The notes under the pieces are model-generated. The model saw nothing but the letters and a program-made list of their open reading frames with translations. It had not been told where the DNA came from and searched no databases. Positions 33,649 to 59,446 of a DNA stretch of 64,000 bases are shown one piece after another (position 1 is the first letter of the stretch; the number at the start of each line of letters is the position of its first letter). A program made the translations under genes and the position numbers. The DNA lies in NCBI RefSeq assembly GCF_003634315.1, contig NZ_RBXL01000001.1, positions 3,204,501 to 3,268,500 of the forward strand. The letters run 5' to 3'. The stretch comes from Thiocapsa rosea. Its GTDB lineage: Bacteria; Pseudomonadota; Gammaproteobacteria; Chromatiales; Chromatiaceae.

Positions 33649-35913
33649 GCTCCCGCCTGCTCGGCTTGCTCTGACTGCTCAGTCTGCTCCGCCTGGGGCA
33701 GGATCTCGACCTGCTTCTTTTTCAGCTGCATGAGGAGCCATTCGAGACCCTCGGCGATGTAGCCGGGCACGACGATGCTGTCGAACTTCTCGACCTCGAG
33801 GACGTCGAGTGCGAACTCGGCTTTCTTGCCGCTGTTGAGGGCGCGATACATACATTCGCCGATCGCGGTCGCGCCGCCGCCGGCTGCGATCGCGTCGCTG
33901 AACTTGCGCACCAGACCGGTCCCCTTGAGCCCCGAGAAAAAGGTAAGGTTTTGGAACGCGAGCGCATCCTCGAATGTATAGGGATAGGCCGTTTCCGGCT
34001 CGGCGGACCCAGGTGCGATCACAGCCAGCGGCGTCTGATAAGCGACGCGCACCGCGAACAGAGGATCACCGTCTACGCGCAGCGTCTTGTCCGCGGCATC
34101 GGCATCCATGAGGGCATCGACGTCCTCGACGCTCGGCACCCAAGTCTTCAGGGTCGCGTTGTTGGTCTTCTGGTTGGCACCCTTTGCCGGCTGCACCAAT
34201 GCGCCGCCGGTGCCGTCGAGCGTATCCAGGTCGGTGATGATCAGCGTCAACAGCCCGAGATGGTTAATCAGCGGCTTGAGACGATGCGCATGGCTGCCGC
34301 CGATCTCGAGCAGCGTGATGTAGCACTGGTTGAGCTCGTCATAATGCGCTCTAATGAAGTTGGGGACGAGCATGCGCTCGGCTGGCCCTTCCACTAGGAT
34401 GGCGGCATCGGCAAAGAACAGATCGGCATGCTGCGCACGCAGGTAGCGCGTAACGAACCGCTCGGTCTCACTTCCAGGACCGAACACTTCGGACAGGTTG
34501 ACAACGGTCGAGACCGGCACCCGGGCCGCCATGCCGGCCGGTAGCCGACGGAAATAGCGTAGGCAGGAGAAGGAAATCTCATGCGCCACATGGCTTGAGT
34601 GGGTGCTGACCACCAGCTGGGTGCTCAGCATCTTGCTCTCGCCCAAGTCCTCATGGGCGCGCAGCACAGCGTAGGCCTTTTTGATGAAGACCTGCTGGAC
34701 CTGGGCGTGGAGATGGGCCTCGGGTTCTTCGACTAGCACCAGATGGAGCGGCTCGGTGTTGGTGATCGTCGCACCCTTCGACGCCTTGCCGACGCGCATC
34801 CACGCGTCGCGGAAGCTCATCAGCCGGAAGATCATCGAGATCAAATTCTGATAGCCGAGCCCGTTATTGGACTCGGGCAATCGGAGTAGAGGTGTGGTTG
34901 CGCCATCCTGAGCGATCACATCGACTTCAAAGCTGATTGCCGCGCTGTGATTGAGACCATCAATCGCCTTCAGTCGGGTTGATACGCGCGGACGTGGATC
35001 GGTCACGCCGGGATAGCCCATGCCTTCGACCTCAGTGAAGGCGGCCTTGAAGCTCTCGGTCAGCCGCTTGTCGAATGTATCTTGGGCGGCCTCGATCGCC
35101 TGGAGTGCCCCGAGATCCTTCGGATCTGGTCCCTTGGTCGGATCGAGATGCTTGGCATAGTAGCTTCTCAGCTGGTCTGACAGACGGCTGCCCACCCCGA
35201 CGGCAGGGGCGTCCTCGTCATCTTGGCCAGACTGCTCTTCACCGAACCCGCGTTGTGCGGGGATGTCGTGCACACGGATCAAGCCGTTCAATGGATCGCC
35301 TTCGATCGGCAGCGACACGGCCGGCAGCGCCTGCGGTCGCGCCTGGGACTTGTCGGGCACCGCGAGCTTGGCAGGATCCAGCGAATAGGGACGGATTGTG
35401 AAGTGGGTGGAGAGCTTCTTGCTGAGAAAGTCGACAAGGTTCGCCGGCCAAATCGTTAGCTTGGGAGGATCCGGCGGTGGATCGGCGTCCCGATGTTCCT
35501 CCGCCGCAGCGACATTTGCCGCTTCCTTCATCGCCTCGGCGTCGCTCACGGCGCCAACAAAGTCCTTGTACAACAGGCCGAGATCCTTGGGCTCGTAGCG
35601 CAGTCGGACGCCCAGCCTGCCACCTTCCCAATCGAGCGTCGGGATCAGATCGCGGACATGATGCATCTCGCCGGTCTCGACGTGCAGCCAGAGGTCAAGC
35701 GTCGGTAGAACGCTGACCCACGGGTCGACGGCCAGATCGATGACGTCCCCGGCGTAACGCGCTGCGATCCAGCTTTCCCCGAGCGCAATGATCTCGGACC
35801 AGTGGCACAGGGTAAAGTCATGTATCTCAAAGGGGCAGCTGCGCGGCGACAGAAAGCGGCGCATTGCGAGCATTGCCGAGGTCTTGCCACTGTTGTTAGC
35901 CCCGACGAAAAGT
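33645..35913 (-). pseudogene. gajA: GajA-like OLD-family ATPase/TOPRIM nuclease, main part (split by IS)
   Basis: The first bases of this part complete codons reading VGANNSGKTSAMLAMRRFLS, the Walker A region. Further on are LVLVEEPEAHLHAQVQQVFI (Walker B region), STQLVVSTHSSHVAHEI, and the TOPRIM acids in AAILVEGPAERMLVPNFI and LTLIITDLDTLDG. This is the OLD family that forms GajA in Gabija. The N-terminal codons are on the far side of an ISL3 element (35914-37492). Without the element and one 8-base duplication the gene reads 781 residues from GTG 37577. As it stands, a product from ATG 35873 would lack the P-loop. A Gln/Glu/Ala-rich tail (QAEQTEQSEQAEQAG) ends the protein. Confidence 0.88.
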
Positions 35914-38873: not shown

Positions 38874-39639
38874 TCAGGCCGCCTCGCGAGCCGGCGTGCG
38901 CCGGTGCAGGCGCAGCGGCATGCCGCCTTTTGGGCCGAGCGTGATCTGCGGCTCCAGTTCCAGTTGCTGGTTCGGATGCATGAGCGCGAACCGGTAGCGC
39001 TGCCCGATGGTCGCCAGAATCAGCGGGCCTTCGACCAACGCGAATTGGTTGCCGATACAGATGTGCGGGCCGCCTCCGAAGGGGAAATACTTGAACGTGT
39101 GCCAGCGGCGCACGGCGTTCTCGGCAAAGCGCTCGGGATCGAAGCGCTCCGGATCCTCCCAGAGCTCGGGGTGGCGATGCATGGCGTAGGGGCTCGTCAT
39201 CAGGACGCTGTTCGCCGGAATGCGGTGCCCGCCGATGTCGAGTGGCTCGGCGGTGGCTCGCATCAAGAGATAGGCGGCCGGGTAAAGCCGCAATGCCTCC
39301 TTGAAGACCATCCGGGTATAGGGCAGACGCTCCAAATCATCGAATCCGGGCGGTCGCCCGCCCAAGACAGTATCGATCTCCGCGTGGAAACGGGCCGCGA
39401 TCTCCGGCTGGCGCGCCAGGTGATACCACACGTAGGTGAGCGTCAGGGCCGTGGTGTCGTACCCGGCGAGATAGAGCGTGAGCACCTCGGCGCGGATTTC
39501 CTCGTCGGATAGGCGCGCGCCGGTGTCGGCGTCGGTCATGTTCACCATCATGGTCAGGAGGTCGTCGCCGTCCGCACCGCTCGCGCGACGCCGGTGGATC
39601 GCCTCCGAGACGATGCGGCCGCGCGTGTCGGAGAGTGCC
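38874..39639 (-). pseudogene. Cytochrome P450, C-terminal part (split by transposon)
   Basis: This part has the I-helix oxygen-binding motif LAGYDTTALTLTYV, the K-helix EXXR in FKEALRLYPAAYLLMRATAE, the PERF region (ERFDPERFAENAV) and the heme loop FPFGGGPHICIGNQFALVEG with the ligand cysteine. The N-terminal part is at 48414-49017, beyond an 8774-bp transposon. The 5-base repeat GTGCC (39635-39639 and 48414-48418) flanks the insert. Joining gives 454 residues, the normal length, and restores RRQRALSDTRGRIVSEAI across the junction. Without the N-terminal half no functional enzyme is made. Confidence 0.92.
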
Positions 39640-39769
39640 TGAGTGCGGTCAGCGATTTTGATGGTGGCGTGATCAAGTTGCGTGATGGGGTTCGGTGAAG
39701 CGCTCCCCGGTCTCGCGCGGCCGGGGTGTGGGCCGACGGCGCGAGGTGGATCAAGCGCGGTGACGGGAC

Positions 39770-39988
39770 TCAGAACAACAGGGGATCGTCGAAATCCGGT
39801 CCGTCGAACAGGTCCGGTTGGTGGTCGTGAGGCCGGTTTTCCTCGCGTTCGGCATCGCGGATTTGGGAGGCGTAGCGGGTCTCGAACTGATCGGTCAGTC
39901 GGAAGAGGACCTCCCGGATGGCGAGGACCGCGTCATCGGACAGGGGTGGCCAGAAGACTGGCTGCAGGGTGGTGTAGGGCTGCGGCAT
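39770..39988 (-). CDS. Small acidic protein of the transposon operon
   Basis: The 72-residue product is the last gene of the transposon operon, 18 bases after the ATPase gene. It reads LSDDAVLAIREVLFRLTDQF ETRYASQIRD and ends in an acidic tail (DLFDGPDFDDPLLF). It has no known domain. Its fixed place after the ATPase suggests an accessory transposition factor, but that is inference. Confidence 0.65.
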   Translation of the reverse strand: MPQPYTTLQPVFWPPLSDDAVLAIREVLFRLTDQFETRYASQIRDAEREENRPHDHQPDLFDGPDFDDPLLF

Positions 39989-40006
39989 GGTGGTGCTCCG
40001 AGTCGG

Positions 40007-40852
40007 TCAGCGTGGCAGGGCGGCCCGCCGCGGGGTGGCGGTGGCGGGCGGGGTGAAGACCTCGAGGAACAGCGCCTCGTCGAGCCGGGGTCGTTCCTGT
40101 TGTGCGGCGACGGCGAGCAGCTCGGCGGCGAGTGAGGCGAGGATGCGGTCGTTGCCGGCGGCGTGGTCGCAGAGGGTGTGTTGCAGGGGCTCGCTCATGA
40201 GGGCGGCGTTGCCGGCGCTGGCGCACAGGTGTTGCAGGCAGGCGAGCAGCTCCTCGCGGCGGGCGTGCTCGGTGGCCAGGCGGGTGCGGATGCGCGAGCC
40301 CAAGGGCAGCAGCTCCTCGCGGCGCAGGTGATCGGTGAGGCGGGTATCCCCGGCGAGGACGACGCACAGCAGGGGTTGGGAGTCGAAGCGGGCGCTGGCG
40401 AGCAGGCGCAGCTCGTTGAGCACGGCGGGACTCATCTCCTGGGCCTCGTCCACCAGCAGCACGGCACGCCGGCGCGTCGTCTCCAGATGGCCGAGCCAGG
40501 TCGCACGCAGCGCCTTGAAGCCGCCCCAGCGGTTGTGCGGACGCAGCGGGACGCTGAACAGCTCGCCGAGCTCGCGGTAGAAATCCCCGAGGCTGCTTTG
40601 CGGATGATCGATGGCGCCGACGCTCAGATCCGGGAGCCGGGCGAGACGCTCGGCGAGCAGACGCAGCACCACGCTTTTGCCGGTGCCCGGTTCGCCGTGG
40701 ATCATCGCAAAACCGCCTTCGCGGATCTGCGCCTGTTCGATGCGCCACAGGAAGTGTTCCACGCGCGGGGGGATATAGAGCGCCTCGATCGGCAGTTCCG
40801 AGGAGAAGGGATGCCATTTCAGGCCGTAGAGGGCGAGCAGTCGCGCATTCAT
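40007..40852 (-). CDS. ExeA/TniB-like AAA+ ATPase of the transposon
   Basis: The 281-residue product begins LYGLKWHPFSSELPIEALYI, as in ExeA-type ATPases linked to transposases. The Walker A motif is MIHGEPGTGKSVVLRLLAER (near residue 55), Walker B AVLLVDEAQEMSPAVLNELR LL, and sensor-like LLCVVLAGDTRLTDHL. Its ATG overlaps the transposase stop (ATGA at 40849-40852). In Tn7, Tn5053 and Mu such ATPases load the transposase at target DNA. The gene is intact even though its transposase is interrupted. Confidence 0.88.
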   Translation of the reverse strand: MNARLLALYGLKWHPFSSELPIEALYIPPRVEHFLWRIEQAQIREGGFAMIHGEPGTGKSVVLRLLAERLARLPDLSVGAIDHPQSSLGDFYRELGELFSVPLRPHNRWGGFKALRATWLGHLETTRRRAVLLVDEAQEMSPAVLNELRLLASARFDSQPLLCVVLAGDTRLTDHLRREELLPLGSRIRTRLATEHARREELLACLQHLCASAGNAALMSEPLQHTLCDHAAGNDRILASLAAELLAVAAQQERPRLDEALFLEVFTPPATATPRRAALPR

Positions 40853-41454
40853 CGGGTGTCCTCGGCGGTGTTCAGGGGCAGATAGGCCGGCGGCAAGCCG
40901 GTCGCGGCATGGGTCTCGAGCAGTTGGCGCAGCAGCGGCGCCATCCCGCTCGGTGTGCTCGGTTGCGGCACCGGTGCGCCGGGCACCAGCGCACGGCGGG
41001 CCTCCCCGGCATTGGCGGCCTTATCCAGCGGGCGCAGGGGACTCAGGATCGCGCCGCTGTGCGGATCCACCAGATCGACATGGGCCAGATCCCAGCGCGC
41101 GTAGCGTAGATGCACCGTCTCCAGGGCGCGGTAGCGCGCGGGGATCTCCAGGCGGATGCCGGCCAGGCTGACGGTGCCGTCGGCACGGCGCTGGCGCCGG
41201 GCGACCTCGATGCGAAAGGCCGTGCGCAGGGCAGCGGCGTCCGGACAGGGGCGCGCCACGGTCGGGCCCTCCAGATAGCGCGCCAGCGGCGTGGTGGCCA
41301 ATTCCGAATGGGTGCTGCGGTGATACTCCTGCTCGACCCAGGCTTGGGTGGCGTGGTTGAGGGCCTGCAGCGTCAGCCCGGACTCGCCTTCGAGCATCGC
41401 CATCAGGCGGCCTTCCACGCGACCCCAAAAGGCTTCTTGCTTGGCATTTTGATA
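40849..41454 (-). pseudogene. Transposon DDE transposase, C-terminal part (split by RIT)
   Basis: From the junction it reads NAKQEAFWGRVEGRLMAMLE, which contains the catalytic glutamate (KQEAFW) and then the C-terminal beta-barrel-like domain (TPLARYLEGPTVARP, LRYARWDLAHVDLVDPHSG). The N-terminal part with the two aspartates is at 46759-47603. Joining across the RIT element gives a 481-residue protein with YSPYQNAKQEAFW at the seam. Confidence 0.87.
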
Positions 41455-41613
41455 GTTATGTGGCCGACCACATAACTATCAGTATGTGGCGCCCGAAACT
41501 ATGTGGCCGAGCACTGAACTGCCCACCTGATCGCTGAGCATCGGCCAAAAAGACGCCACATAACTGCGGCGCTGTTGGTCATCATGACGCCTCTTAATAG
41601 AAGGAGGTTGATC

Positions 41614-42861
41614 ATGATTGAGACGCTCTTGAAGCGGTCCGCCGTGCTCGCTCGCTACCAGGAAGCCCCGTATGCAGTGGACAGAGACGCTTTCCTGACA
41701 AGCTGCGCGCAAGCGGGCTATTCCAACGCCATGCTGAAGAAGATCGCCTGGGGGTTGCTGGCGGTTGCCGACAGCATTGATCTCAGCGTCCAGATCAGTA
41801 CACAGGACATTGAGCTGGCCGTGGATCGGCGGACGCATTTCACACGCCAGGGGACCGATCCCCAAGCGAACGGCTCGCCGGACACGCGACAGTTGCTCGT
41901 CCGCTTCGCCACGCAATGGGTTCGGAGCATGGGCGCGTTGCGGTCGCCCGAGGGGGAGTACTCGCCTTTTACAGCGCAGTGTGAGGTCTTTGCCCGGTAT
42001 CTGCGCGAGGAACGCGGCTTGTCGTCGGTGACGATTGCCACGCGCCGTGAGCGCCTGGTGTGGTTTTTCCGTGAGCTGAATCCGTCTCGGCAAGCCTTGT
42101 GCGACATCGTCATCTCCGACATCGATGCGTTCCTGGAGGCGAAAGGCAAACAGGGTTGGACACGCGCCTCATTGTCCGCCTTGGCTGGTTCCTTGCGCAG
42201 TTTCTTCACGTTTGCCGAAGCCCGAGGTTGGTGTGCTCCGGGACTGGCCGCTGTCATCGAGTCGCCTCGGCTGTATGCCCGTGAAGGTCTTCCCGAAGGT
42301 CCCGACTGGAACGATGTCCAGCGCCTGCTGGCCAGTTGCAACACCGATCGCCCTGTCGACATGCGTGACCATGCGATTCTGCTGTTACTGGCGATGTACG
42401 GCTTGCGTCGAGGGGAGGTGGCCGGGCTGTCTCTGGAGGATCTGGACTGGGAACAGGACCGGATCCAGGTACGCAGGCCCAAGCAACGCCTCGCGCAACG
42501 CTACCCATTGCAGCCCGCCGTCGGTCAAGCCATTCTGCGCTATCTGCGTGAGGTCCGACCACGGTGCGCCGAGCGGGCGCTCTTTCTTTCCCTCCTCGCA
42601 CCGATCCGCCCGCTGTCGGCGGCAAGCATCACGGCCCTTGTCCACAATCGCCTAAGTCGTCTCGGCCTGACGCTGGCGCCGCGTGGGGCGCACTGTTTGC
42701 GGCACGCCTGCGCCAGTCATCTGCTGGCTTCGGGATTTACCCTGAAGCAGATCGGTGATCACCTCGGTCATCGCGCGGCCAATTCCACGTTGAGTTACAC
42801 CAAAGTCGATCTGGCGGGGCTCCGGCAAGTGGCCGACATCGATCTGGGGGCACTGCGATGA
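41614..42861 (+). CDS. ritA: RIT tyrosine recombinase A
   Basis: The 415-residue product is a tyrosine recombinase with an N-terminal core-binding domain (FARYLREERGLSSVTIATRR) and the catalytic domain. The latter contains the box-I arginine in LLLAMYGLRRGEVAGLSLED, the histidine-arginine box HCLRHACASHLLASGFTLKQ IGDHLGHR and the tyrosine in TLSYTKVDLAGLRQV. A strong ribosome-binding site AAGGAGG lies 6 bases before the ATG. Its stop overlaps the ritB start as ATGA. Three-recombinase operons of this kind define RIT elements. Confidence 0.92.
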   Translation: MIETLLKRSAVLARYQEAPYAVDRDAFLTSCAQAGYSNAMLKKIAWGLLAVADSIDLSVQISTQDIELAVDRRTHFTRQGTDPQANGSPDTRQLLVRFATQWVRSMGALRSPEGEYSPFTAQCEVFARYLREERGLSSVTIATRRERLVWFFRELNPSRQALCDIVISDIDAFLEAKGKQGWTRASLSALAGSLRSFFTFAEARGWCAPGLAAVIESPRLYAREGLPEGPDWNDVQRLLASCNTDRPVDMRDHAILLLLAMYGLRRGEVAGLSLEDLDWEQDRIQVRRPKQRLAQRYPLQPAVGQAILRYLREVRPRCAERALFLSLLAPIRPLSAASITALVHNRLSRLGLTLAPRGAHCLRHACASHLLASGFTLKQIGDHLGHRAANSTLSYTKVDLAGLRQVADIDLGALR

Positions 42862-43799
42862 TCCTCAGTGCAATCGTCTCACAGTACATCTCCCACAAGC
42901 GTGCTTTGGGTTACCGGTTTCAGACCGAGGACGCGATCCTCCGGTCGTTCTGTCGTTGCGTCGGTGACCAGCCACTCGCGCAGATCGAACCCCAAGATAT
43001 TCTCCCCTTCCTCAACGGCAACGGACCGGTGACGGCTTACTGGGAGAAGAAATACCGCGTTCTGTCGGGGCTCTACCGGTTTGCCCTGGCCCGTGGCTGT
43101 GTGGTCTGCATCCCGCTGCCCCGGACGGTTCCCGCGCAGACGATGCCCGCGTTCGTCCCGTATATCTACACTCGGGCGGAACTCAAACGCTTGCTCGAGG
43201 CGGTGCCTGCGGCCTGTTGCAACCGAGCACGTATCGATGCCGACGTGTTTCGAACCGTTCTGCTCCTGCTCTACGGCGCGGCGCTGCGGATCAGCGAAGC
43301 GCTCTCGCTGAGCATCGCCGACGTTGATGTGCCGCGCGCCTGCCTGCGGGTTCGCGGGACGAAGTTCTACAAGACGCGTGATGTGCCATTGGGCGCGGAC
43401 CTGACACAGGTCCTGAGCGACTACGTTCGTGCCAATCAGCGCCTGCAGTCGGCCGCCGCAACGGCGCCTTTGTTCTGCCGTCGGGATGGTACACCGCTGA
43501 CGAAGTCTGCCGTCCAAGGTGCCTTTCGACGCCTCCGCATCGCGGCGGGGATTGTTCGCGAGGGCGGTCCAAGGCGACAACCACGCCTGCATGATCTTCG
43601 CCACACGGCAGCCGTCCATCGTCTCATTGCGTGGTATCGCAACGGTGCCGACCTGAACGATCTGTTGCCCAAATTGGCCACCTATCTCGGACACGTCGAT
43701 CTTTCGGCGACGCAGCGTTACTTGACCATGACGGCGGATCTGCTCCACGAGGCAAGCCTGCGCTTCGAACGCTATGCACTGGAGCACGCCCATGAGTGA
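42858..43799 (+). CDS. ritB: RIT tyrosine recombinase B
   Basis: The 313-residue product is the second recombinase. The N-terminal domain (ISHKRALGYRFQTEDAILRS FCR) is followed by LLLLYGAALRISEALSLSIA (box-I arginine), RLHDLRHTAAVHRLIAWYRN GADL and LGHVDLSATQRYLTM with the nucleophilic tyrosine. It overlaps ritA by 4 bases and ritC by 8 bases, so the three are translated as a coupled unit. All catalytic residues are present. Confidence 0.92.
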   Translation: MILSAIVSQYISHKRALGYRFQTEDAILRSFCRCVGDQPLAQIEPQDILPFLNGNGPVTAYWEKKYRVLSGLYRFALARGCVVCIPLPRTVPAQTMPAFVPYIYTRAELKRLLEAVPAACCNRARIDADVFRTVLLLLYGAALRISEALSLSIADVDVPRACLRVRGTKFYKTRDVPLGADLTQVLSDYVRANQRLQSAAATAPLFCRRDGTPLTKSAVQGAFRRLRIAAGIVREGGPRRQPRLHDLRHTAAVHRLIAWYRNGADLNDLLPKLATYLGHVDLSATQRYLTMTADLLHEASLRFERYALEHAHE

Positions 43800-43859
43800 A
43801 CCCAATGTGCTCGGTCCTTGGGTGCGGCGTTTCCTGCTCGAGTATTTGGTGTTGGAGCG
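43792..43859 (+). pseudogene. ritC: RIT recombinase C, first 22 codons (split by IS)
   Basis: The frame starts at ATG 43792 and reads MSEPNVLGPWVRRFLLEYLV LE up to the IS junction. It continues in frame at 45731 (ERNLSINTQRSYRDMLALLL) when the IS and one TTGGAGCG duplication are removed, giving a 332-residue recombinase. Confidence 0.88.
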
Positions 43860-45730
43860 GGCCTTGATCATCGATTGGTCCACTGTTGCTAAGCCGCCAC
43901 AGGAACGAGGTAAGGCTGCCTTGCCGGGCGCGGTCGTCGTCGGGCCGGTCGGGCGGGCCAGGGCATGCGCTCGAGCACCTGCTCGAACAAGGATGGGTGG
44001 GGTTGAGCGAAGAAGCGCTCGGCGGCCGTGGTGCCGTCGGGCCGCTTGATCGCAAAGTTGTGCAGGGCGGTCAAGACCTGCTGCTTGCGCGGACTGAGTC
44101 GGTGATGCCCGTGCTGATAGAGCGCGAGGAAGCCGTTGCGTCCCTCGACACAGGAGCTGCTGCGCTGGAACAGATCGGCACACTCCCCGGCGACCTGCTC
44201 GAGATGGTGACGGGTCTGCGGATCCAGCGACTGGATCGGGTGCGAGGGCTGCCTCAGCGGGGCGAGACGCTGCGCACTCAGTGCTCGGAGTCGATGACGG
44301 GGCTCGGCGCGGGTGCTGCGTGCGGCGACGCGCTCCAGATAAAGCGCCGGGATCAGATCGTCGAGCATCGCCTGCTCGATGGCCGGTGCCAGGTCCAGCG
44401 CCTGCACCCGGGTGTTGACCATCATGAAGAAGAAGGTCAGCGTGGCGACGAGGCTTTGAGTCAGGCGCTTCGCCTTGGCCAGATGTGCGCAGAGACGCTC
44501 GGAAAGATCCGCTTCCTCGGCGATCGCCTCCAGGCGCGCAAACAGCGTTCCCAGACGCGCCTCCAACTGCTCGGGGGTTTGCGCCTGTCCCTGTTGGATC
44601 TCGTAGGGATGATCGACCTCGCTGAACGCACCGATCAGGGCTTTGGCCTCGGCGCGGTGCGCGTGGGCCTGCTCGCGCGCAAGGCTGGCTTGGACGTAAG
44701 CGCTCAGCGCCTCGTCGATGCGCGCGGCGAACGCCGGCGGGCGCCCGGGGCCGTGGCGGCGCCGATGATAGGCCTGCTCGGCGGCGCATTCGTCTTGCCA
44801 GCGCGCCTTCGCCTCGGTCTCCGCCGTCTCGGCCTGTTGCTCGGCGCGCTTCAGCGACAGACTCATCGCCTGGCTGACCTCATGCTGCAGATGAAACAGG
44901 TCCGTGGCATGGTGTGCGCCCAGATCACGCTCGACATGCGCCAACAGCCCCTTGGCCTCATCGCTGGTGCCTTGCACCACCGTGACATTCAGCCCCTCGA
45001 GTCCACCCTCGAGCGCCCGTGTCCAGGCCGCCGCCGAGCGCTCATCGCTCCTGTGCTCGAGCAGGATGAAGTTCGAGACCGCATCGATGCCCACCAAACG
45101 CATGCCGTCTTTCCACGTCTCATCTTCGGCGATGCTCAGTGTGCGATGGGGCATGGCTTGGGCCAGCGTCCCGCGCAGTTCGGTGGCGGCGGTGACGATC
45201 TGCTCCTCCAAGCCGGCATGGAACGCCTGCTGCGCACCGTAGGAGGCGCCGATGAATGCCGACAGCCCACTGCGCTCGAGAAAATCGCAGACCACGCGCA
45301 CGCCCGCGCCGCCCTGCTCGCCGATGCTCCAGTGCGCGGCAACCAGGATCCGGCGCAGCCACACCACGCCCTCGGGCGTCTCGACGAAGGCCGACAGCGC
45401 CGCCGGCGCCGATGGCGCAGGGGACGCGTTCCAGTGACGCAGGGTGCTGCGCGCCACGCCGGCGCCGCTGACCGCCGCGCGTTGACTCTGCCCATCCTGC
45501 TGGGCTTGCGCCACCGCATGCAGGTGCTTGGCGCGATCCAAGCGATCGTGGATTGGCGTGGGGCGTCGATCTGCACTAGAGTCGACACAGGCAGGAGCAT
45601 CGGACAACGGCGTTTCCCTCGGTCAGTTTGCACTTCCAAGGGTACGCCTCCCCGGCGCTCCTGCCACTCCTTCAGGATGCTTGATCGCCTACCGAAACAC
45701 GCGGTTTTGGACCAACCGATGATCAAGGCC
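43860..45730 (-). mobile_element. IS with DUF6399-type transposase, 1871 bp
   Basis: The inverted repeats match at 21 of 22 positions: GGCCTTGATCATCGATTGGT at the left, GGCCTTGATCATCGGTTGGT at the right on the opposite strand. The 8-base direct repeat TTGGAGCG flanks the element (43852-43859 and 45731-45738). It carries one gene on the minus strand. It is complete and splits ritC, the third level of nesting in this region. Confidence 0.92.
43889..45607 (-). CDS. DUF6399-domain transposase
   Basis: The 572-residue product starts with a helix-turn-helix-like region (QSQRAAVSGAGVARSTLRHW) and has a DDE-like core: LSIAEDETWKDGMRLVGIDA, VVQGTSDEAKGLLAHVERDL GAHHATDLFHLQHEVS. It closes with the DUF6399 segment SSSCVEGRNGFLALYQHGHH and LTALHNFAIKRPDGTTAAER FF. 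A glutamine- and alanine-rich coiled section lies in the middle (LKRAEQQAETAETEAKARWQ). It fills the IS from end to end. Proteins of this type are poorly classified transposases. The opposite-strand frame of 927 residues across this gene is a shadow joined to ritC. Confidence 0.85.
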   Translation of the reverse strand: MSDAPACVDSSADRRPTPIHDRLDRAKHLHAVAQAQQDGQSQRAAVSGAGVARSTLRHWNASPAPSAPAALSAFVETPEGVVWLRRILVAAHWSIGEQGGAGVRVVCDFLERSGLSAFIGASYGAQQAFHAGLEEQIVTAATELRGTLAQAMPHRTLSIAEDETWKDGMRLVGIDAVSNFILLEHRSDERSAAAWTRALEGGLEGLNVTVVQGTSDEAKGLLAHVERDLGAHHATDLFHLQHEVSQAMSLSLKRAEQQAETAETEAKARWQDECAAEQAYHRRRHGPGRPPAFAARIDEALSAYVQASLAREQAHAHRAEAKALIGAFSEVDHPYEIQQGQAQTPEQLEARLGTLFARLEAIAEEADLSERLCAHLAKAKRLTQSLVATLTFFFMMVNTRVQALDLAPAIEQAMLDDLIPALYLERVAARSTRAEPRHRLRALSAQRLAPLRQPSHPIQSLDPQTRHHLEQVAGECADLFQRSSSCVEGRNGFLALYQHGHHRLSPRKQQVLTALHNFAIKRPDGTTAAERFFAQPHPSLFEQVLERMPWPARPARRRPRPARQPYLVPVAA

Positions 45731-46669
45731 TTGGAGCGCAACCTCTCGATCAACACCCAGCGCAGCTATCGTGACATGTTGGCGTTGCTGCTGCCCTTCG
45801 TCAGTCAGCATCTGCGCAAGGCGATTGACCATCTAAAGATCACCGACCTGACGCCGGATCTCATTCGCGCGTTTCTCGCCGATGTCGAAGTGCACCGGGG
45901 CTGCCTGGTGGCAACCCGAAACCAGCGCCTCGGCGCCGTGCATGCCTTTGCACAATTCATCGGGGAGCGCAATCCGGAGTCTATCGAGTGGTGTATGCAG
46001 GTACGTCAGATCCCGTTCAAGAAGACGGACCATCCACTGCTCACGTCCCTCGACAAAGCGGAGATGGATGCGCTGCTGGCGTCGCCGGATCGACAAACGC
46101 AGCAGGGACAGCGTGACTATGCGCTGTTGCTGTTCCTGTACAACTCGGGGGCGCGTGCCAGTGAGGCCGCATCACTCAGGATCGGGGACATCGATTGGTA
46201 CGCCCCCAGCGTCAGGATTCTTGGTAAAGGCAATAAACAGCGCCTGTGTCCGTTGTGGTCAGTCACAGGCGATGAATTGCGCCGATTGGCGGCGCAGCGC
46301 GGGCCGGAGCAACGCGTGTTTCTGAATCGCAATGCTCAACCGATTACCCGCTTCGGCATTCACACCTTGGTCGAACGCCATGCCTTGAGAGCCTGCGCAC
46401 GGGCCCCGTCGCTTGCCACGAAGCGCGTCAGTCCGCATGTCATCAGACACAGTACGGCGACGCACCTACTGCGTTCGGGGGTGGACATCAACACCATCCG
46501 GGTTTGGTTGGGTCACGTCTCGCTGACTACGACCAACATCTATGCAGAGACCGACCTGGAGACCAAAGCCCGTGCTCTCGCCACCTGCGCGCCACCGACG
46601 GATGGGCAGGAGGCGACGACGTCCTGGCACACGCGGCCCGATCTGATGGCGTTCCTTCGGGGTCTTTGA
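45731..46669 (+). pseudogene. ritC: RIT recombinase C, main part (split by IS)
   Basis: The reading continues ERNLSINTQRSYRDMLALLL PF, then FLYNSGARASEAASLRIGDI (box-I arginine), VSPHVIRHSTATHLLRSGVD INTIRVWLGHVSLTTTNIYA E with the catalytic histidine, arginine and tyrosine. All active-site residues are in this part, but the start codon and first 22 codons are beyond the IS. An in-frame ATG (MIKALERN at about 45720) lies in the IS end, so a nearly complete protein could still be made if transcribed from the IS; that is speculation. Confidence 0.88.
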
Positions 46670-46758
46670 CCGACAGTTATGTGACGCTTGTCTGACTGGT
46701 GGCTCGGCACTGCGGGACGAGTCAGACGGTGCGCCACATAATTCACGGCGCCACATAC

Positions 46759-47603
46759 TGATAGGGCGAGTACGGCAAGGTGGTCTGGTGCAGGACACCC
46801 AGACGGGCCAGTCCGGCCACCGTCTCCTCGGCCAGCATCGCCGCGCCGTTGTCGGTCATCAGGGCACGCGGCAGGCCGCGCTTCATGAACGCTTGGGACA
46901 GCCCGTGCACCAGCACCTCGGCGGTCTCGTTGGTGTACCACTGCAGATGACAGACCAGGCGCGAGCGGTCGTCGATGACGCCGAACAGCAGCGGCGTGAG
47001 CCAGGTTCCGGACGGCATGAGCACCTTTCGCGAGCCGTGATGGAAATCCAGGTGCCAAAGGGCGGCGACATGCTCGACCTCGAAGCTGCGCACCTCGCGT
47101 TGCTCCAGGCGATCGCGTGCGGCCAACGCGCCGGCGGTATCGCGCTTGGGCGCGGCACGGCGCACCATCCCGTGGGCCTTCAAGTAGCGCCGCACGCTCG
47201 GATAGGACGGCACCGGGGTGGCGGTGCCGGCGAGGGTCGCGGCCAGGTTGTCGCGATGCAGCTGGGCGGTCCAGCCGGGATGATCGCGGTACTGCGCCTG
47301 CAGGGCCTCGCGTGCGGCGGGCAGCACACTCGGGAAGGCCCCGCGGTCGGCGCGCACGCGATTGCGCAGCACCGCCACCGGATCGGGGGCGGCGCGCGCG
47401 GCGTAGTACCAGCGCTCGAGGGTCGACACACCGAAGCGCACGTCCAGGCCGGTGACGGGATGGCGCCAGGTCTTGGCGGCCAAGGCGGCGAGTGCCGCCT
47501 GCAGGTCGCCGTCCGGCGGCGGGGCGGCGAGCAAGGGTCCGATGATCGCAAAGCGCACGCGGGCCCACCGCTCGCGTTGCGGAACCTCGATGGGGATCGG
47601 CAT
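46759..47603 (-). pseudogene. Transposon DDE transposase, N-terminal part (split by RIT)
   Basis: This part starts at ATG 47603 and contains a helix-turn-helix region (VSTLERWYYAARAAPDPVAV), a second DNA-binding stretch (YPSVRRYLKAHGMVRRA) and the first two catalytic acids: VAALWHLDFHHGSRKVLMPS and LPRALMTDNGAAMLAEETVA. It ends at YSPYQ, where the RIT element enters, just before the segment with the catalytic glutamate. Confidence 0.87.
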
Positions 47604-47648
47604 CCGGGTCTCCCGGCCACGGTGCCGGGGGATCCGGCACCTTCGCGA

Positions 47649-48269
47649 TCAGCCTAGCGGGGGACCCGGACGCCTTCGAGCTGCATCCTCTGCGTGGCGT
47701 CGGCCGCCCTCGTGCAGCCTGCACGAACGACTCGTCAAGGGACTCAAAAAGCGCAGCAATGCCGCCAGGGCCTCCGCGGCATCGCCGAGGAAGCGCTCGA
47801 GCAGACTCCCCGGCGCCTGCTGCAGATCCACCGGCGGGACAAAGCGGCCCTGCGCACCGCACCACAGCGGGGTCTGCGCCAACTGCTCCCGCCACCAGGT
47901 CTGCCAGCGTCGCAGGGTGCGGATCGGGACCGCCAACGTCGCGGCCAAGGCGTGCGCTTTGGGGTGCTGCCCGGTATGACGCACCGAGGCCACCACGACG
48001 ATCATGCCGAGATAGACCCGCCGGCCCAGGAACCGCACCGAGCGCGGCGTCAGGCGCCGCCGACACTGCGCACAGCAAAAGCTGCGACGCGTGGCGAACG
48101 CCTCGCGCCATGGCTCCGGACAGCCTCGGGGTTTACGGGGGTAGTCGGCCCGATGCAGCGTGCCGCCGCAGGCGGGGCAGCCCTCCGCTCGGGCGGCCTC
48201 GGCGAGATCCTCGTCGATGTGCAGCAACAAGGCGAAAAACGTGGGGCTTTCAAGTAAGGCGTGGCACAC
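47649..48269 (-). CDS. Zinc-ribbon protein of the transposon operon
   Basis: The 206-residue product is the first gene of the transposon. It begins at GTG 48269 (CHALLESPTFFALLLHIDED LAE, where the family begins; an upstream start at 48332 is possible) and has two CxxC pairs: EGCPACGGTLHRADYPRKP and SFCCAQCRRRLTPRSVRFLG RRVYLGMI. It then shows a helix-turn-helix-like LAATLAVPIRTLRRWQTWWR. It may be a DNA-binding accessory factor that recognises transposon ends. It is 46 bases upstream of the transposase gene on the same strand. Homologous genes are commonly seen in this position in related transposons. Confidence 0.75.
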   Translation of the reverse strand: MCHALLESPTFFALLLHIDEDLAEAARAEGCPACGGTLHRADYPRKPRGCPEPWREAFATRRSFCCAQCRRRLTPRSVRFLGRRVYLGMIVVVASVRHTGQHPKAHALAATLAVPIRTLRRWQTWWREQLAQTPLWCGAQGRFVPPVDLQQAPGSLLERFLGDAAEALAALLRFLSPLTSRSCRLHEGGRRHAEDAARRRPGPPLG

Positions 48270-48413
48270 TGATGGAGTCTCTTTGTCTTCGCAAACAAGA
48301 GACTCTCCCGACGGGTGCTGTTGTTCAAGCACCCCGAGGGAGGCCCACCGCTCTCCCTCATGAAAGATGACGATTTAAGGGGTAAAACCCATCAGGGAAG
48401 GTGGCCGTACTCA

Positions 48414-49017
48414 GTGCCCGCTGTCGGCGATGCTCCGGAGTCGGGAGCCAATCCGGGATCTGCAGCAGGCGATCGAACTGGCGCGTGGCGATGGCCTGCA
48501 GGGCCGGAACCGTGGCGGCCACCGTCGCGGTCCGGGCGGTGCTGTCGACCCTGAAGAGTGCCTCGGTGACGATCGACAGCGTTAGCCCGTCCATCTCCTG
48601 TTCCACATCCGCCTCCTGACCGTCGTGCCAGCGCTCGGTCAGGGCGAGCGCGTGGCGCGCCATGCTGTCGGCATAGCCGCGCACCTGCTGCAGGTGCAGG
48701 GCAGGGGCGATCATGCGGCGATGGCGTTTCCACGCCTCGCCTTCGCTGGTCAGAAGACCGACCCCCAAGGTCTTCTCGAGGATTCTGCGCACGAGCGGAT
48801 CCCGCGCCGGATGCCGATGCTTGGTCACCTGCAGGTCGCGGATGAGATCCGGATGGGAGACCAGATAGACACGCCTGGGGCCGAGCCGGAATCCGACGAT
48901 TGGCGCGATCCGCGCGCTTTCGGCGAGGAAGCCGAGCCGGTCCTCGCGAAAGTCCCGCAGACAGCCGGTGAGCCAATGGCCCTTGCGCTCGACCAACGTA
49001 TAGGTCGCGGTGCTCAT
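48414..49017 (-). pseudogene. Cytochrome P450, N-terminal part (split by transposon)
   Basis: From ATG 49017 it reads TATYTLVERKGHWLTGCLRD, the typical P450 start without a membrane anchor, then VYLVSHPDLIRDLQVTKHRH and the C-helix WKRHRRMIAPALHLQQVRGY (WxxxR heme-propionate motif), up to IPDWLPTPEHRRQRAL. After this it meets the transposon end. With the C-terminal part (38874-39639) it forms a 454-residue P450. The substrate is unknown. It is on the same strand as dinB, 155 bases downstream of it. Confidence 0.92.
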
Positions 49018-49171
49018 GCCGGCCTTTCCTCCCGTGTCCAAGCGGTCTGGGTCTTCGGTGCCGAGGTGGACAGTAGCGATGGTGTTGGCGAGAAGGGCCT
49101 TTACAAGCGGTCGGCATCCGCGTCGAACCGCCCGGGAGAAGCTTCTTGTCAACGACAGGGTCGATGCATCG

Positions 49172-50350
49172 CTACGGCCGCCGAGAGAGTCCACGCTGAA
49201 TGCAGTGCCTGCCGAACCGGCGCCGGATCGCGTCGAGCGTCGCGTCGAGACGATCATCGGCGTGATTGCCCTCGCGGGTATCCATCTCCGCGAAGAGATC
49301 CGGCTGCACGGGCGCCTGCGCCCAGTCGGAGAGACCCAGACCGATCAGCCGTACCGCCCGACCGGCGTGCGTGTCGGCCCGGTACAGGTCCCACGCCGTG
49401 TCGAAGATGACGCGATCGTCCGCGGTCGGTGCCGCCAGGGTCCGGGAGCGGTTATGGGTTTCGAAGGGGTGCAAGCGGATCTTCAAGGTGACCAGCGTGC
49501 CTTTGCGCGCGGCGTGTCGGGCCAGGTAACCGACCTCCTGCGCGGCCCAACGCAGGGTGTCGCGCAGCACCTCGGTGTCCACGACATCCTCGGCGAAGGT
49601 CGTCTCCTTAGAAATCGATTGCCGCTCTGTGGCCGGATGGACCCGGTCGTCGGCGATCCCGTTGGCCTGCAGATGCACCTGCGTGCCGGTGCGTGCGCCC
49701 AAGCGTCGGCGCAGATCTTCCAGCGGCCGGGCACGCACGTCGCCGACCGTCCGCAAGCCGGCCTGTTCGAGTCGGCGGCCCGTCACGGCGCCGACGCCGC
49801 GCAGGGCGGCGAGCGGCAGCGGATCCAGGAAGGCGCGGACCTCCTCGGGGCGCACCACCAGGAGTCCATCCGGCTTGCGGGCGTCCGAGGCGAGCTTGGC
49901 GATCAGGCGGTTCGGACCGATGCCCACGGAGGCGGTCAGGCCGACCGCCTCGCGGATGGCCGCCTTGGCGCGCCGTGCGACGACCTCGGGCGGACCGATC
50001 AGCCGCTCCAACCCGGAGACATCCAGGTATGCCTCGTCGATCGAGACCGGCTCGACGCGCGGTGAGAGGGTGGCGAGCACCCGCATGATCTCTCGCGACA
50101 CGCCGGCATAGCGCGCCATATCCGGGCGCACGTAGACCGCATCCGCCGGCAGACGGCGCACCGCCTCGGCGATCGGCATGGCCGAGTGCACGCCGAAGCG
50201 GCGCGCCTCGTAGGAGCAGGTCGCGACCACGCCGCGTCGACCGGGCTCGGCGCCGACGACCAATGGGCGCCCCCGCCACTGCGGGCGGTCGCGCTGCTCC
50301 ACCGCCGCATAGAAGGCGTCGAGATCGACGTGCATGACGAGGCGGGACAT
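49172..50350 (-). CDS. dinB: DNA polymerase IV
   Basis: The 392-residue product is a complete Y-family polymerase. It shows VMHVDLDAFYAAVEQRDRP (first catalytic aspartate), GVVATCSYEARRFGVHSAMP, VEPVSIDEAYLDVSG (SIDE motif), LTASVGIGPNRLIAKLASDA RKPDG and the helix-hairpin-helix LRGVGAVTGRRLEQAGLRTV GDV. The C-terminal little finger is also present, with DLFAEMD as a possible clamp-binding stretch. It copies past lesions with low fidelity. The ATG at 50350 starts the domain; the longer open frame upstream is a shadow of traB. It follows traB by 77 bases on the same strand and may be island cargo, though a chromosomal origin cannot be excluded. Confidence 0.94.
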   Translation of the reverse strand: MSRLVMHVDLDAFYAAVEQRDRPQWRGRPLVVGAEPGRRGVVATCSYEARRFGVHSAMPIAEAVRRLPADAVYVRPDMARYAGVSREIMRVLATLSPRVEPVSIDEAYLDVSGLERLIGPPEVVARRAKAAIREAVGLTASVGIGPNRLIAKLASDARKPDGLLVVRPEEVRAFLDPLPLAALRGVGAVTGRRLEQAGLRTVGDVRARPLEDLRRRLGARTGTQVHLQANGIADDRVHPATERQSISKETTFAEDVVDTEVLRDTLRWAAQEVGYLARHAARKGTLVTLKIRLHPFETHNRSRTLAAPTADDRVIFDTAWDLYRADTHAGRAVRLIGLGLSDWAQAPVQPDLFAEMDTREGNHADDRLDATLDAIRRRFGRHCIQRGLSRRP

Positions 50351-50427
50351 GCGGCGATGGGTCCTCGGTTGCCGGGATTCGGAATCGGCGCGCGGGCGAA
50401 GCGACCGACGCCGAGCGTGCGGCCATG

Positions 50428-51750
50428 TTACTCCACTACATCGGCGAGCTTCATCGACACCCCGCGGTTGAGAATGAACTCCGCCCCGCGTCCCGCATCG
50501 ACCTCGATCACCGGCAGCAGCTGCTCGGCCATGTCCAGATAGTAGTTCGCCAGACGATCCATCGCGCCGCCGACGCCTTGCGCCGAGGCGGCACTCAGGG
50601 CTTGGGGCGTGAGCATGGACTGGAACTGCAGGTCGGTGCCGGTGCCGGTATTGACCGGGATCGTCGGCATGCGGTTGAAGATCTGCGAGAAGGATTGCAG
50701 GAACCCCGCCTGCAGCGCCTTGGCGAGCAGCACACCTTGTTTGGAGACCACCCGCCCGCGCACCCCGACCTTGCCGTCTTCGCCCACCGCATAGCCGTCG
50801 ATGGGGATCTCGATGACGCCGCCGTCGTTGCGGATGCAGCTGAAGGTCTCTCCGCGCAGATAAGCCCGCTCGGAGGCCAGATCCCCGAATCCGCCGACCA
50901 ACAGGAAGCACTCGCGCAGGTCCGCACGGACCCGGTTGGGCAGGATCGCCTGGTGTTTGACCCGGATCAGGGCCGGCACGGGATCCTTGCGGGCGTTCTG
51001 CCCGGTCGGCATGTCGATGCCGTTGAGCAGCACCCCTTTGAGGATGGCACCGGCGGGGATATAGACGGATCCGGGCTCGGCGGTGCCGGGCGGAGTCGAC
51101 ACTGGCGCCGTCGAGGCCGGCGCGGCGACGGTGCGGATCTGCAGGGTGCGCCCCGGTGTTTGGGCGGGGACGGCGGAGGAGGGTGCCGCGCCCGGCACGG
51201 ACGGCGGTGTCGTCGGCGGGCCGAACAGCGCCTCCATCGGCGCCGGTCGGTGCGGCTGCGCGGCGGTGCCGGCCGGCGATGCCGGATCCGCAGTATCGGG
51301 CTGCTCCGGTTGCGGCAGTCCCGGCGGGCTCGCCGACTGCCGCGCTTGGACGGCGAGGGCCTCGCGCAGTTGATCGATCTCCCCGCGCAGCGCCTCGAGT
51401 TCAAGCGCGTTGCCGAGATCCTGCTCGCGCGGCGCCGGCCCGAGCGCGGGGGTGTTCGGTGCCGCGGTTGCGCTGCGCTCGAGGTTGCGCTGCACCTCGC
51501 TCATGCGCTTTTCCATGCGCTCCAGGCGATTGACCAGGGCCTCGATCCCGAGTTGCCGTGGATCCGCATCCGTGAGGATGTTGCGCACCAGGGTGTCGCG
51601 CGGCGACGGCGAGTGCAGGCCGGGGGTCTGCGCCGGGGCGAACAGAAAGCTCCCCGCCGTCAGGACCGAGACCACGAAGACGCCGCCGCCGAGGGCGGCG
51701 ACCCGTTTGGCGTTGGGCGAGAGGTTTTCCCAGTGTCGGTGCAGCCTCAT
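50428..51750 (-). CDS. traB: TraB-type conjugation protein (VirB10-like)
   Basis: The 440-residue product spans the inner membrane once (VAALGGGVFVVSVLTAGSFL), has a predicted coiled coil (VNRLERMEKRMSEVQRNLER), a proline-rich periplasmic arm (about residues 140-230) and the C-terminal TraB/VirB10 domain: YIPAGAILKGVLLNGIDMPT G, FLLVGGFGDLASERAYLRGE and VRGRVVSKQGVLLAKALQAG. It bridges both membranes in the F-type secretion channel. The start overlaps the traK stop (ATGA). The next expected gene, traV, is absent; dinB follows instead. Confidence 0.92.
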   Translation of the reverse strand: MRLHRHWENLSPNAKRVAALGGGVFVVSVLTAGSFLFAPAQTPGLHSPSPRDTLVRNILTDADPRQLGIEALVNRLERMEKRMSEVQRNLERSATAAPNTPALGPAPREQDLGNALELEALRGEIDQLREALAVQARQSASPPGLPQPEQPDTADPASPAGTAAQPHRPAPMEALFGPPTTPPSVPGAAPSSAVPAQTPGRTLQIRTVAAPASTAPVSTPPGTAEPGSVYIPAGAILKGVLLNGIDMPTGQNARKDPVPALIRVKHQAILPNRVRADLRECFLLVGGFGDLASERAYLRGETFSCIRNDGGVIEIPIDGYAVGEDGKVGVRGRVVSKQGVLLAKALQAGFLQSFSQIFNRMPTIPVNTGTGTDLQFQSMLTPQALSAASAQGVGGAMDRLANYYLDMAEQLLPVIEVDAGRGAEFILNRGVSMKLADVVE

Positions 51751-52748
51751 TGCGGCTGCCCGGTCGTGCGATGCACACGCGTTTCGCGGGCGAGGACGAA
51801 AAAGACCTCGGTCTCCTCGCCGGGCGCGAGCACTCGGCGCGGCCAGGCGCCCATCGCGGCGACGGTGGCGGTGTCCGGGCGGCAGGTGTCGTGCTCGAGC
51901 GTGATGGCGTGCGCGGCGGTGTTGGCGACTCTCGCCTTCACCAGGTCGGACGCCGGTCCCTGCGCGCGTTCGCCGTGGCGCACCTTCAGGCCGTCGGCGC
52001 AGCGCAGCTTGGCACCCTCCGAGCCCTTCGCGATCCGAAAGCCCGCCGGCATCCGACCTTGCGCCAACGCGCGCAGCTGCTCGACCAGGTCCGAGACATA
52101 GGACGGCCCTTCGCCGTCGCCGTCCCGGTCGGAGGCGTTGGCCAGCATCGGCATGACGGCGACCGGGTCGGCCGGGGCGCGCGTTGCGGTCGCGTTCCCG
52201 GCACGCTTGCCTTGATATCCCGGCACCGTGAGGCGGACCTCGCGCGGCGGGACATACCGCGGGGCCAAGGTCAGCGCCAGCGCGAGGGTGCTGCCTTGTC
52301 CGTCGCCGATGTACAGGGCCACGGGTTCTTCGGTGTCGGTGGCGACATAGACCACACTGCCGTCGACCTGGGTCGAGGCATTCGAGACGGTATGCACGAC
52401 CGGGTCGGCAAAGGGCGTGACGATGCGGTTGAGGTGTCCGATGGCGATCTCGATCAGCACCGTGGTACCCGGCGTGACGTCGAGGTTGCGCGGACCCAGC
52501 TCCAGGGTGACCGGCAGGCTGCCGCCGGTACGCCGAGCCGGAGTCGCTTCGCCGCCCATGACGGTGCGGATGAGGCCCTCGGGCGACGCCTCGGAGCGCG
52601 ACGTCTGCAGGACCGAGGACACCGCGCTCGGCGTGCACCCGGCGTCGAGCAGCGTGCAGGGAACCGGGGGAATCTCGAAGGCCGGGTCGGCCTGTGCGCT
52701 CGACGCGGCCAGGACGACGGCAAGAATGGAGAGGCGTCGGGTGATCAT
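51747..52748 (-). CDS. traK: TraK-type conjugation protein (secretin-like)
   Basis: The 333-residue product has a signal peptide (ITRRLSILAVVLAASSAQA) and the TraK/VirB9-like beta-rich body: DVTPGTTVLIEIAIGHLNRI VTPF (conserved N-R-I-x-T-P-F motif), VVYVATDTEEPVALYIGDGQ and LALTLAPRYVPPREVRLTV. TraK, TraV and TraB form the outer-membrane core complex of F-type systems. It overlaps traB and traE at both ends by ATGA-type junctions, so the operon is tightly coupled. Confidence 0.9.
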   Translation of the reverse strand: MITRRLSILAVVLAASSAQADPAFEIPPVPCTLLDAGCTPSAVSSVLQTSRSEASPEGLIRTVMGGEATPARRTGGSLPVTLELGPRNLDVTPGTTVLIEIAIGHLNRIVTPFADPVVHTVSNASTQVDGSVVYVATDTEEPVALYIGDGQGSTLALALTLAPRYVPPREVRLTVPGYQGKRAGNATATRAPADPVAVMPMLANASDRDGDGEGPSYVSDLVEQLRALAQGRMPAGFRIAKGSEGAKLRCADGLKVRHGERAQGPASDLVKARVANTAAHAITLEHDTCRPDTATVAAMGAWPRRVLAPGEETEVFFVLARETRVHRTTGQPQ

Positions 52749-53341
52749 GTCTTCGCGTCCTCGTGGTGGGCATCGCGGGTGGTGCGCGGATCCCCGCGAT
52801 ACACCTCCAGATGGGTGATCAGCGGGCGGTAGTTGCGGAACTCGACCCGCAGCTCGTAGGTGCGTCGGTTGAGCACGGGGGCGGCCGCCGGGCCTTCGGT
52901 CTTGTGCTGTCCGGTGACGAAGACGGTGCGGGTGGCGGTGTCGTAGGCGACCGTTTGCGGGGCGAAGTGCATGGCGATGTTCTCGCGCTTGATCGCCTCG
53001 GTCTGATCGGCGATCGACTTCATCACCTCGCGATGCAGTCCCCCGGCGAGCAGCGGCTCCAAAACGCGTACCAGCCCGTCGACGGTGGTCGGGCCGACAT
53101 TGCCGAGCAGCTGGGCGACGTAGACACCCCAGGACTCCTCGACCTGCTGGCTCGCGTACTCGCGCGCGATCGTCACCTCGCCTTCCAACACCGGCGGAAC
53201 CAGCACCACGGTGCGCTCGACCTGACCGACCAGTCCGACCAGGATCAGGTTGGAGGCGACCAGGACCAGCACCGTGATGCGCCAGACCCGGTTCTCGAGT
53301 GTCGTGCCGCGCCAGGTGGAGAGAAAGTCGCCGAGGGTCAT
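52745..53341 (-). CDS. traE: TraE-type conjugation protein (VirB5/VirB8-like)
   Basis: The 198-residue product has one N-terminal membrane helix (RITVLVLVASNLILVGLVGQ) and the TraE body: VVLVPPVLEGEVTIAREYAS QQVEESWGVYVAQLLGNVGP, VLEPLLAGGLHREVMKSIAD and RRTYELRVEFRNYRPLITHL EVYRG. It is a periplasmic scaffold protein of the channel. It overlaps traL and traK by 4 bases on either side. Confidence 0.9.
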   Translation of the reverse strand: MTLGDFLSTWRGTTLENRVWRITVLVLVASNLILVGLVGQVERTVVLVPPVLEGEVTIAREYASQQVEESWGVYVAQLLGNVGPTTVDGLVRVLEPLLAGGLHREVMKSIADQTEAIKRENIAMHFAPQTVAYDTATRTVFVTGQHKTEGPAAAPVLNRRTYELRVEFRNYRPLITHLEVYRGDPRTTRDAHHEDAKT

Positions 53342-59369: not shown

Positions 59370-59446
59370 CGGGGCATCCTGCACCGTCGCAGATGCGCCC
59401 GGCCATGGCGATAACCGCGCGGATGGGTCTGCTTTGCGGCGGACCG

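Follow-up and report, generated by a model that had tools for sequence, protein, structure and literature searches.

RIT elements, which carry three overlapping tyrosine recombinase genes, had been described by 2010 without a shown mechanism, and in the passages of PMC2864759 that deal with them, those of Cupriavidus metallidurans CH34 lie in an IS66 tnpA and in radC. In Acidithiobacillus ferrooxidans, RITs were found in the transposase gene of a Tn6049-related transposon, and the same report gives a RIT in radC, an inverted repeat of 28-29 bp with an overlapping palindrome, and variable ends, which in 2012 were found puzzling (PMC3414803). Table 1 of a 2023 paper (PMC10214605) lists the target specificity, empty site and movement of RITs as not tested. 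Here, we analyzed a stretch of 64,000 nt from Thiocapsa rosea (contig NZ_RBXL01000001.1, positions 3,204,501 to 3,268,500), called the window below, in which an insertion sequence (IS) lies in a RIT, the RIT in the DDE transposase gene of a Tn6049-like transposon, and the transposon in a cytochrome P450 gene. The outer (transposon) and inner (IS) levels of this nest are ordinary transposition, and the middle (RIT) level is targeted insertion, at codons just before the presumed catalytic glutamate of the transposase.

The first-pass annotation had reported three nested mobile elements in one P450 gene, and we confirmed the coordinates, repeats, seams and empty sites of this arrangement. The transposon (39640-48413, 8774 bp) is flanked by the target duplication GTGCC (39635-39639 and 48414-48418), its transposase gene is interrupted between TGATA copies at 41450 and 46759 (5304 bp, or 3425 bp minus the IS and one 8-bp repeat), and ritC is interrupted by a 1871-bp IS between copies of TTGGAGCG at 43852 and 45731. 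Scripted deletion of each insert plus one repeat restored the reading frame at every level (P450, 454 aa; transposase, 481 aa; RitC, 332 aa); in the present state, all three genes are split and the IS gene is an open frame. The predicted empty sites and free copies were also found, namely uninterrupted P450 genes at three loci (L010, L011 and L022; loci used for comparison carry L numbers), nine transposon copies with a RIT-free transposase gene, and 20 other complete copies of the inner IS.

The window RIT has the features of its family. Its body (41482-46758, plus strand, IS inside) measures 3398 bp minus the IS and one 8-bp repeat, against a typical length of about 3.5 kb, and is bounded by a terminal inverted repeat (I1) of 32 nt at 88% identity, where about 28-34 bp is expected. 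Three adjacent tyrosine recombinase genes lie on the plus strand with overlaps at 42858-42861 and 43792-43799: ritA (41614-42861, start inferred from alignment; Pfam Phage_integrase, E = 1.8e-24, on 41575-42861), ritB (42858-43799; Phage_integrase, E = 1.4e-26) and the IS-split ritC (5' end 43792-43859; remainder 45739-46669, with Phage_integrase, E = 2.7e-31, on 45731-46669), whose joined product matches RIT relatives over its length. At the DNA level, this is the only copy found in the genome, and the next RitA matches are weak.

The ends of the element show an unusual order. On the left, the core X_a, TGATAG (41450-41455), which lies within transposase codons and was defined by free-copy comparison and core parsing, is followed by a 20-bp palindrome H (TTATGTGGCCGACCACATAA, that is, TTATGTGG-CCGA-CCACATAA; 41456-41475), by the inverted core X_b', CTATCA (41476-41481, from I1 and core parsing), and then by the body; on the right, the body is followed by the core X_c, TGATAG (46759-46764, core parsing). 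The palindrome is absent in free transposon copies, and we read it as two back-to-back recombinase half-sites. The flanking TGATA repeats noted in the first pass are thus present, although they are not a duplication made at insertion, as TGATA pre-exists in the transposase gene as part of the 6-bp TGATAG; the repeat is best read as TGATAG in three copies, one of them inverted. The same X-H-X' plan, in which a 6-bp core and its inverse enclose a 20-bp palindrome at one end, was seen in many RIT relatives, which were collected by RitA similarity (the best 80 of 235 genome loci plus six plasmid records; the palindrome scan covered these and the window, but not the six plasmid loci L203-L208). Three cores could be read in 31 elements, the window included, and all were identical in 16; X_a equaled X_b only in seven, X_b equaled X_c only in two, X_a equaled X_c only in one, and all differed in five, while the remaining loci ended at contig ends, had no clear palindrome or could not be parsed. 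The half-sites of H resemble the terminal half-sites of the body (mean 5.87 of 8 positions vs 2.74 for shuffled arms), so the inner site approximates the reverse complement of the junction expected in a circular RIT. Four short contigs of about 3.4 kb (L097, L105, L123 and L130) have both termini at or close to the RIT core, and the palindrome is missing from each of them. This pattern would be expected if copies in one assembly differ in how the body is oriented relative to H.

We then compared the window transposon with nine RIT-free copies (L178 and L180-L187; one on the second contig of this genome, five in G004, two in G005 and one in G002; the partial L179 and two more from G002 that lie at contig ends were left out). 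Their ends (TGAGTGCGGTCA and TGAGTACGGCCA) are identical to those of the window copy, which comes to 3465 bp once the RIT is taken out. None of the nine has an interrupted RIT site; eight read TGATA there and L185 reads TGGTA. The transposase is a single open frame in eight of the nine, all eight in related genomes, and the sole near-complete other copy in this genome (L178, G000:C2) has a frame shift near residue 28. Among the ten copies including that of the window, a perfect 5-bp target duplication was found in five, a duplication of only 4 bp in four, and none in L185.

The position of the RIT within the transposase gene recurs widely. Across two RIT clades, the same DDE transposase codons, seven to five positions before the presumed catalytic Glu (E-7 to E-5), were hit in 30 of the 33 members with a visible flank. 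The window's clade (tree support 79) comprises 18 rows, 16 with flank on at least one side, of which 14 are at the window's transposase site; the neighbouring, mostly IS21 clade (support 99) comprises 20 rows, 17 with flank, of which 16 are at the corresponding position in IS21-type or IS481-like transposases, including L113, which was placed there by eye. These clades come from a quick full RitA tree of 90 of the 93 loci, with L092, L122 and L172 excluded for short frames. By NCBIfam, applied to half proteins, the targets match IS21 above the cut-off in L115 and below it in L119 and L125, with IS481 as the best match, below cut-off, in L111 and L114. The core spans the third base of codon E-7 to the second base of codon E-5, and the presumed catalytic Glu is at +7 in 18 of 18 joined transposases, in an alignment of 18 of the 20 parsed E-site loci (L099 and L124 left out) that was trimmed around the seam, which favours column agreement; the +7 spacing is also evident from direct reading. 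In the joined IstA of L119, aligned to the solved IstA of IS5376, the core codons correspond to residues 226-228 and the Glu to E233. The structural report (PMC10122671) gives D124, D187 and E233 as the catalytic residues of IstA and an ordered loop at 225-228 as the wedge, so the RIT core would sit, by alignment, in the wedge loop before E233.

Near-identical RITs occupy dissimilar targets. Body identity is 98.5% between L124 and L091, 98.1% between L128 and L091, and 98.3% between L127 and L135, whereas the IstA targets, of two types, share 24.7% identity for L128/L091, 27.8% over 158 aa for L127/L135, and no significant similarity for L124/L091; L101 and L103 have bodies 99.1% identical in host transposases 80% identical. 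Since near-identical RITs lie in IstA types at most about 25% alike, insertion was repeated and targeted, and a single inherited insertion is ruled out for those pairs. Such near-identical bodies at different targets would also support, by comparison, the mobility of RITs. Because TGATA pre-exists in the transposase and the same codons are hit in many lineages, the RIT level is best read as a targeted insertion, and the place of the window RIT in the nest, judged from these comparisons, reflects aim and not chance.

Orientation follows a rule of its own. H lies on the C-terminal side of the target in all 23 placeable E-site elements, with ritABC antiparallel to the target gene in 14 and parallel in nine; these loci are not all independent, as L102, L103 and L112 belong to one genome. 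A fixed side of H with a free body orientation would follow if a palindromic attP can be used from either arm. Four loci (L100, L109, L113 and L131) have a transposase N-terminal half at both RIT ends and H at neither, which would follow if H goes with the C-terminal side. In these four, and in L141 and L144, one target half or one flank motif recurs in inverted form on the two sides of the RIT, and L141 has a palindrome at both ends; such inverted flanks may stem from recombination between copies of the RIT or from the assembly.

Together, these data support an explanation of the whole nest that we regard as very probable. The Tn6049-like transposon would have entered the P450 gene by ordinary DDE transposition, leaving the 5-bp duplication, the RIT would have entered the transposase gene by site-specific recombination at an attB, and the 1871-bp IS would have entered ritC. 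The RIT circle is predicted to carry the palindrome X-H-X' at its junction, where two almost identical core sites would adjoin back to back, one inverted relative to the other, and RitA, RitB and RitC would recombine either arm of the circle with attB in the transposase gene, so that H would be fixed relative to the target and the body would be free to take either orientation. The attB DNA would encode the loop before the catalytic Glu, and the conservation of this loop would make one RIT able to enter transposases that share little else. As the transposase is cut before its catalytic Glu, the transposon should be inactivated in cis.

Other histories of the middle level were weighed against targeted insertion. 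The two direct TGATA copies around the RIT are what a 5-bp target duplication would leave if the RIT had landed in the transposase gene by chance; however, no tyrosine recombinase is known to make target duplications, a third, inverted core lies inside the left RIT end next to the palindrome, and 30 of the 33 flanked members in the two clades share this codon position, in transposases about 25% identical or less. The repeated codon position contradicts chance nesting unless the loci are copies of one insertion, and we consider such nesting highly improbable; on the three-copy core, the repeated codon site and the same RIT in unlike targets, a random TGATA duplication was rejected. One ancient insertion into an ancestral transposase, after which transposon and RIT diverged together as composites, would account for RitA groups following target type in the labelled subset. 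This is contradicted by the bodies of L124/L091, L128/L091 and L127/L135 (98.1-98.5% identical in weakly similar or dissimilar IstA genes), by L101/L103, in which bodies and transposases differ so unequally, and by the nine free transposon copies without a RIT. A single ancient insertion is therefore wrong for those pairs and could hold for the others only if RIT and target divergence matched, and we judge it very unlikely overall.

The remaining alternatives to stepwise nesting in place concern the locus as a whole. The RIT, and perhaps the IS too, may already have been in the transposon when it entered the P450 gene, with transposase supplied by another copy. The sequence does not fix where each level formed, and the eight intact transposase copies in related genomes could once have acted in trans; against this, we found no other RIT-bearing transposon copy in this genome, and both other transposon copies there are defective (L178 is frame-shifted and L179 partial), with no intact helper seen. 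We see arrival as a composite as possible, though on the unlikely side. As a composite could have formed elsewhere, the datable order of arrival put forward in the first-pass annotation stands for the order of insertion events and not for arrival at the P450 locus. An assembly artefact joining repeats is exceedingly improbable: 21 complete near-identical IS copies, the window's included, are a classic cause of misjoins, but the genome is assembled in two contigs (an indirect measure of misassembly), the ends and target repeats of the respective elements are present at the junctions, and joining restores the frame at all three seams. Insertion by transposition, site-specific recombination and transposition at the three levels is the explanation that we retain.

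Other RIT clades show further targets. Of 14 loci searched, nine (L093, L136, L139, L144, L146, L151, L153, L160 and L203) have beside the RIT a motif that we take to be like domain V of a group II intron (GAGCC then G/C; AAGCCG in L093 and L203); the motif was not found in the other five (L137, L140, L141, L142 and L169), with a similar sequence by eye in L137; Rfam identified group II intron D1-D4 in seven of 12 loci scanned. L096 and L208 share a common IS66 codon site. L176 lies inside a tyrosine recombinase gene at GKGRKD, and L157 adjoins a GKGRKD-type motif in an apparent tyrosine recombinase gene remnant beside a fatty-acid hydroxylase gene. Two further targets are an ISL3-like transposase, entered by L148 at IYDKFH, and an IS256-like one, entered by L095 at FYD; both family matches come from part proteins and score below cut-off. 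On the RitA tree, target class required five changes across 38 labelled rows vs a shuffled mean of 19.2, a value as low in none of 200 shuffles; the labelled subset omits unlabelled loci, which overstates how cleanly targets sort.

Several observations weigh against targeted insertion at catalytic codons, or limit it. The site was not seen in three of the 33 flanked members: L120 is located, by eye, at YVKTNKNDAADA of an IS110-like gene, L110 offers no more than about 75 bp of flank without a match, and L126 is ambiguous. Between the two main clades, and within one larger clade with them, six rows (L123, L129, L143, L145, L155 and L165) form a clade with other or unassigned targets. The damaged L092, which is outside the tree, is at the site yet has no H at its far end, opposite the N-terminal half. 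Among the 31 parsed elements, 15 show some difference between their three X copies, so either core identity is not strict or decay or repair has occurred; we considered repair of an imperfect palindrome, which might copy X into the inverted site and would fit the equality of X_a and X_b in 23 of 31. By eye, the target bases beside the window X are unlike RIT half-sites. Among other clades, the idea of catalytic motifs as targets is not borne out by L169 and L173 (other IS21 regions), L145 (a zincin gene), L174 (a TSCPD gene) or L094 (by eye, an HU-like gene). In the literature, RIT mobility has been called unproven (PMC3414803), and the table cited above gives target specificity as not tested (PMC10214605). 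More generally, we give even chances to the view that RITs are homing tyrosine-recombinase elements preying on mobile elements, with the attB of many clades formed by catalytic-motif DNA of a transposase, recombinase or group II intron, and with X-H-X' as a symmetric attP that allows either body orientation and may take up the 6-bp core of the target. If true, uptake of the target core would let a RIT adapt to synonymous or divergent targets.

The outer transposon is Tn6049-like in size and gene content (about 3.5 kb, 3465 bp; rve and AAA matches), with its likeness to Tn6049 judged by description; Tn6049 of C. metallidurans CH34, as far as the relevant part of PMC2864759 describes it, is also about 3.5 kb and carries an ATPase gene. 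The genes of the window transposon lie on the minus strand: an AAA ATPase (40007-40852; Pfam AAA_22, E = 1.4e-22), the DDE transposase in two parts, C-terminal with the presumed catalytic Glu (40849-41455) and N-terminal (46759-47603; Pfam rve, E = 1.5e-09), and a cysteine-rich protein (47649-48332) with no matches in Pfam or NCBIfam searches. Assignment of the transposon to the IS481 family was rejected, because the N-terminal half alone scored 86.9 bits against NCBIfam transpos_IS481, whose cut-off is 224; the two are only related. A separate array in G026 (G026:C155:54666-56654; L085 and L090) gave three matches of equal score and the same query range to part of a related transposase, 789 bp apart, and appears to be a tandemly repeated transposase fragment.

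The inner IS (43860-45730) lies in ritC on the minus strand, with terminal inverted repeats at 43860-43882 and 45708-45730 and its duplication at 43852-43859 and 45731-45738. Its 572-aa transposase (43889-45607, minus strand) matches Pfam DUF6399 (E = 7e-60) and had no match in NCBIfam; with this transposase, its inverted repeats and the 8-bp duplication, it is a DUF6399 IS. The 20 other complete copies in the genome have an exact 8-bp duplication in 17 cases and a 9-bp one in three. Because the window copy is identical to nine of these 20, a recent date fits the IS level, and this level only.

In the P450 gene (minus strand), the p450 domain was found in both halves, the 5' part on the start-codon side (48414-49017; in the open reading frame at 48358-49257) and the 3' part (38874-39639; Pfam p450, E = 1.1e-65, on 38874-39551). 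Continuity across the seam was upheld by gap-free alignment of the joined protein to the intact homologues L010, L011 and L022 of two same-genus genomes (92-95% identity) and to L013 (60%); at the DNA level, the 600-bp seam region aligned ungapped at 93-96% to the first three, whose empty site holds a single GTGCC in L011 and L022 and GCGCC in L010. The nearest solved P450 by sequence, with L011 as the query, is 7wzl, a putative P450. In another genus genome, the homologue L012 (G002:C28) has an in-frame stop and aligned only partly in the seam region, so this P450 may be dispensable there.

The genome holding the window comprises two contigs (6.11 Mb), and we take the host to be a phototrophic purple bacterium because the photosynthetic reaction-centre family was found in all 11 genus genomes searched, its own included. 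Conjugation genes (TraK, TraE, a TraD/TraG-like coupling protein and TraI_2; 51747-59711) lie near the P450 gene, with an IMS DNA polymerase gene (in the open reading frame at 49172-50911) in between; given these conjugation genes, the nest may sit inside an integrative conjugative element. On the other side, strong PADLOC matches identify a Gabija-type two-gene anti-phage defence system (31735-35873, minus strand; GajA 33645-35873, GajB 31735-33648). Searches of the window against plasmid DNA and Rfam returned no match.

RIT elements and cases of RITs in transposase genes are already known, and neither the codon-level rule nor the att anatomy was found in print; the literature searched holds no account of that rule or of the three-copy core, and Ricker 2013 (Plasmid 70:226) and Van Houdt 2009 may bear on it. 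The A. ferrooxidans RITs (PMC3414803) share three overlapping tyrosine recombinase genes, a length of about 3.5 kb, a terminal repeat with a palindrome and a Tn6049-like transposase target; they differ in occupying one genomic location in two strains, which was taken as support for mobility, and the RIT section of that paper does not describe the codon position, the three-copy core or the fixed palindrome side. GInts and strand-biased circularizing elements (SEs) are alike in having several tyrosine recombinases, site-specific insertion and a short target-derived core, which is a 6-bp spacer in SEs, with attachment-site variants in GInts; they differ in their four-gene modules and in the cargo of GInts, and the relevant parts of these reports mention one SE insertion in an IS3 gene and describe no one-sided palindrome or transposase catalytic-codon rule (PMC5385486, PMC10214605). 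From the comparison, RITs should have a defined attP (X-H-X') and a 6-bp core, with a precise attB in known transposase genes. The picture is of one mobile element that spreads through the catalytic codons of other elements, with cis silencing of the latter as a predicted effect. In this respect RITs resemble homing introns and inteins, which use conserved active-site codons as a durable target; unlike these, RITs use tyrosine recombinases and, as far as seen, do not splice out of the gene that they interrupt.

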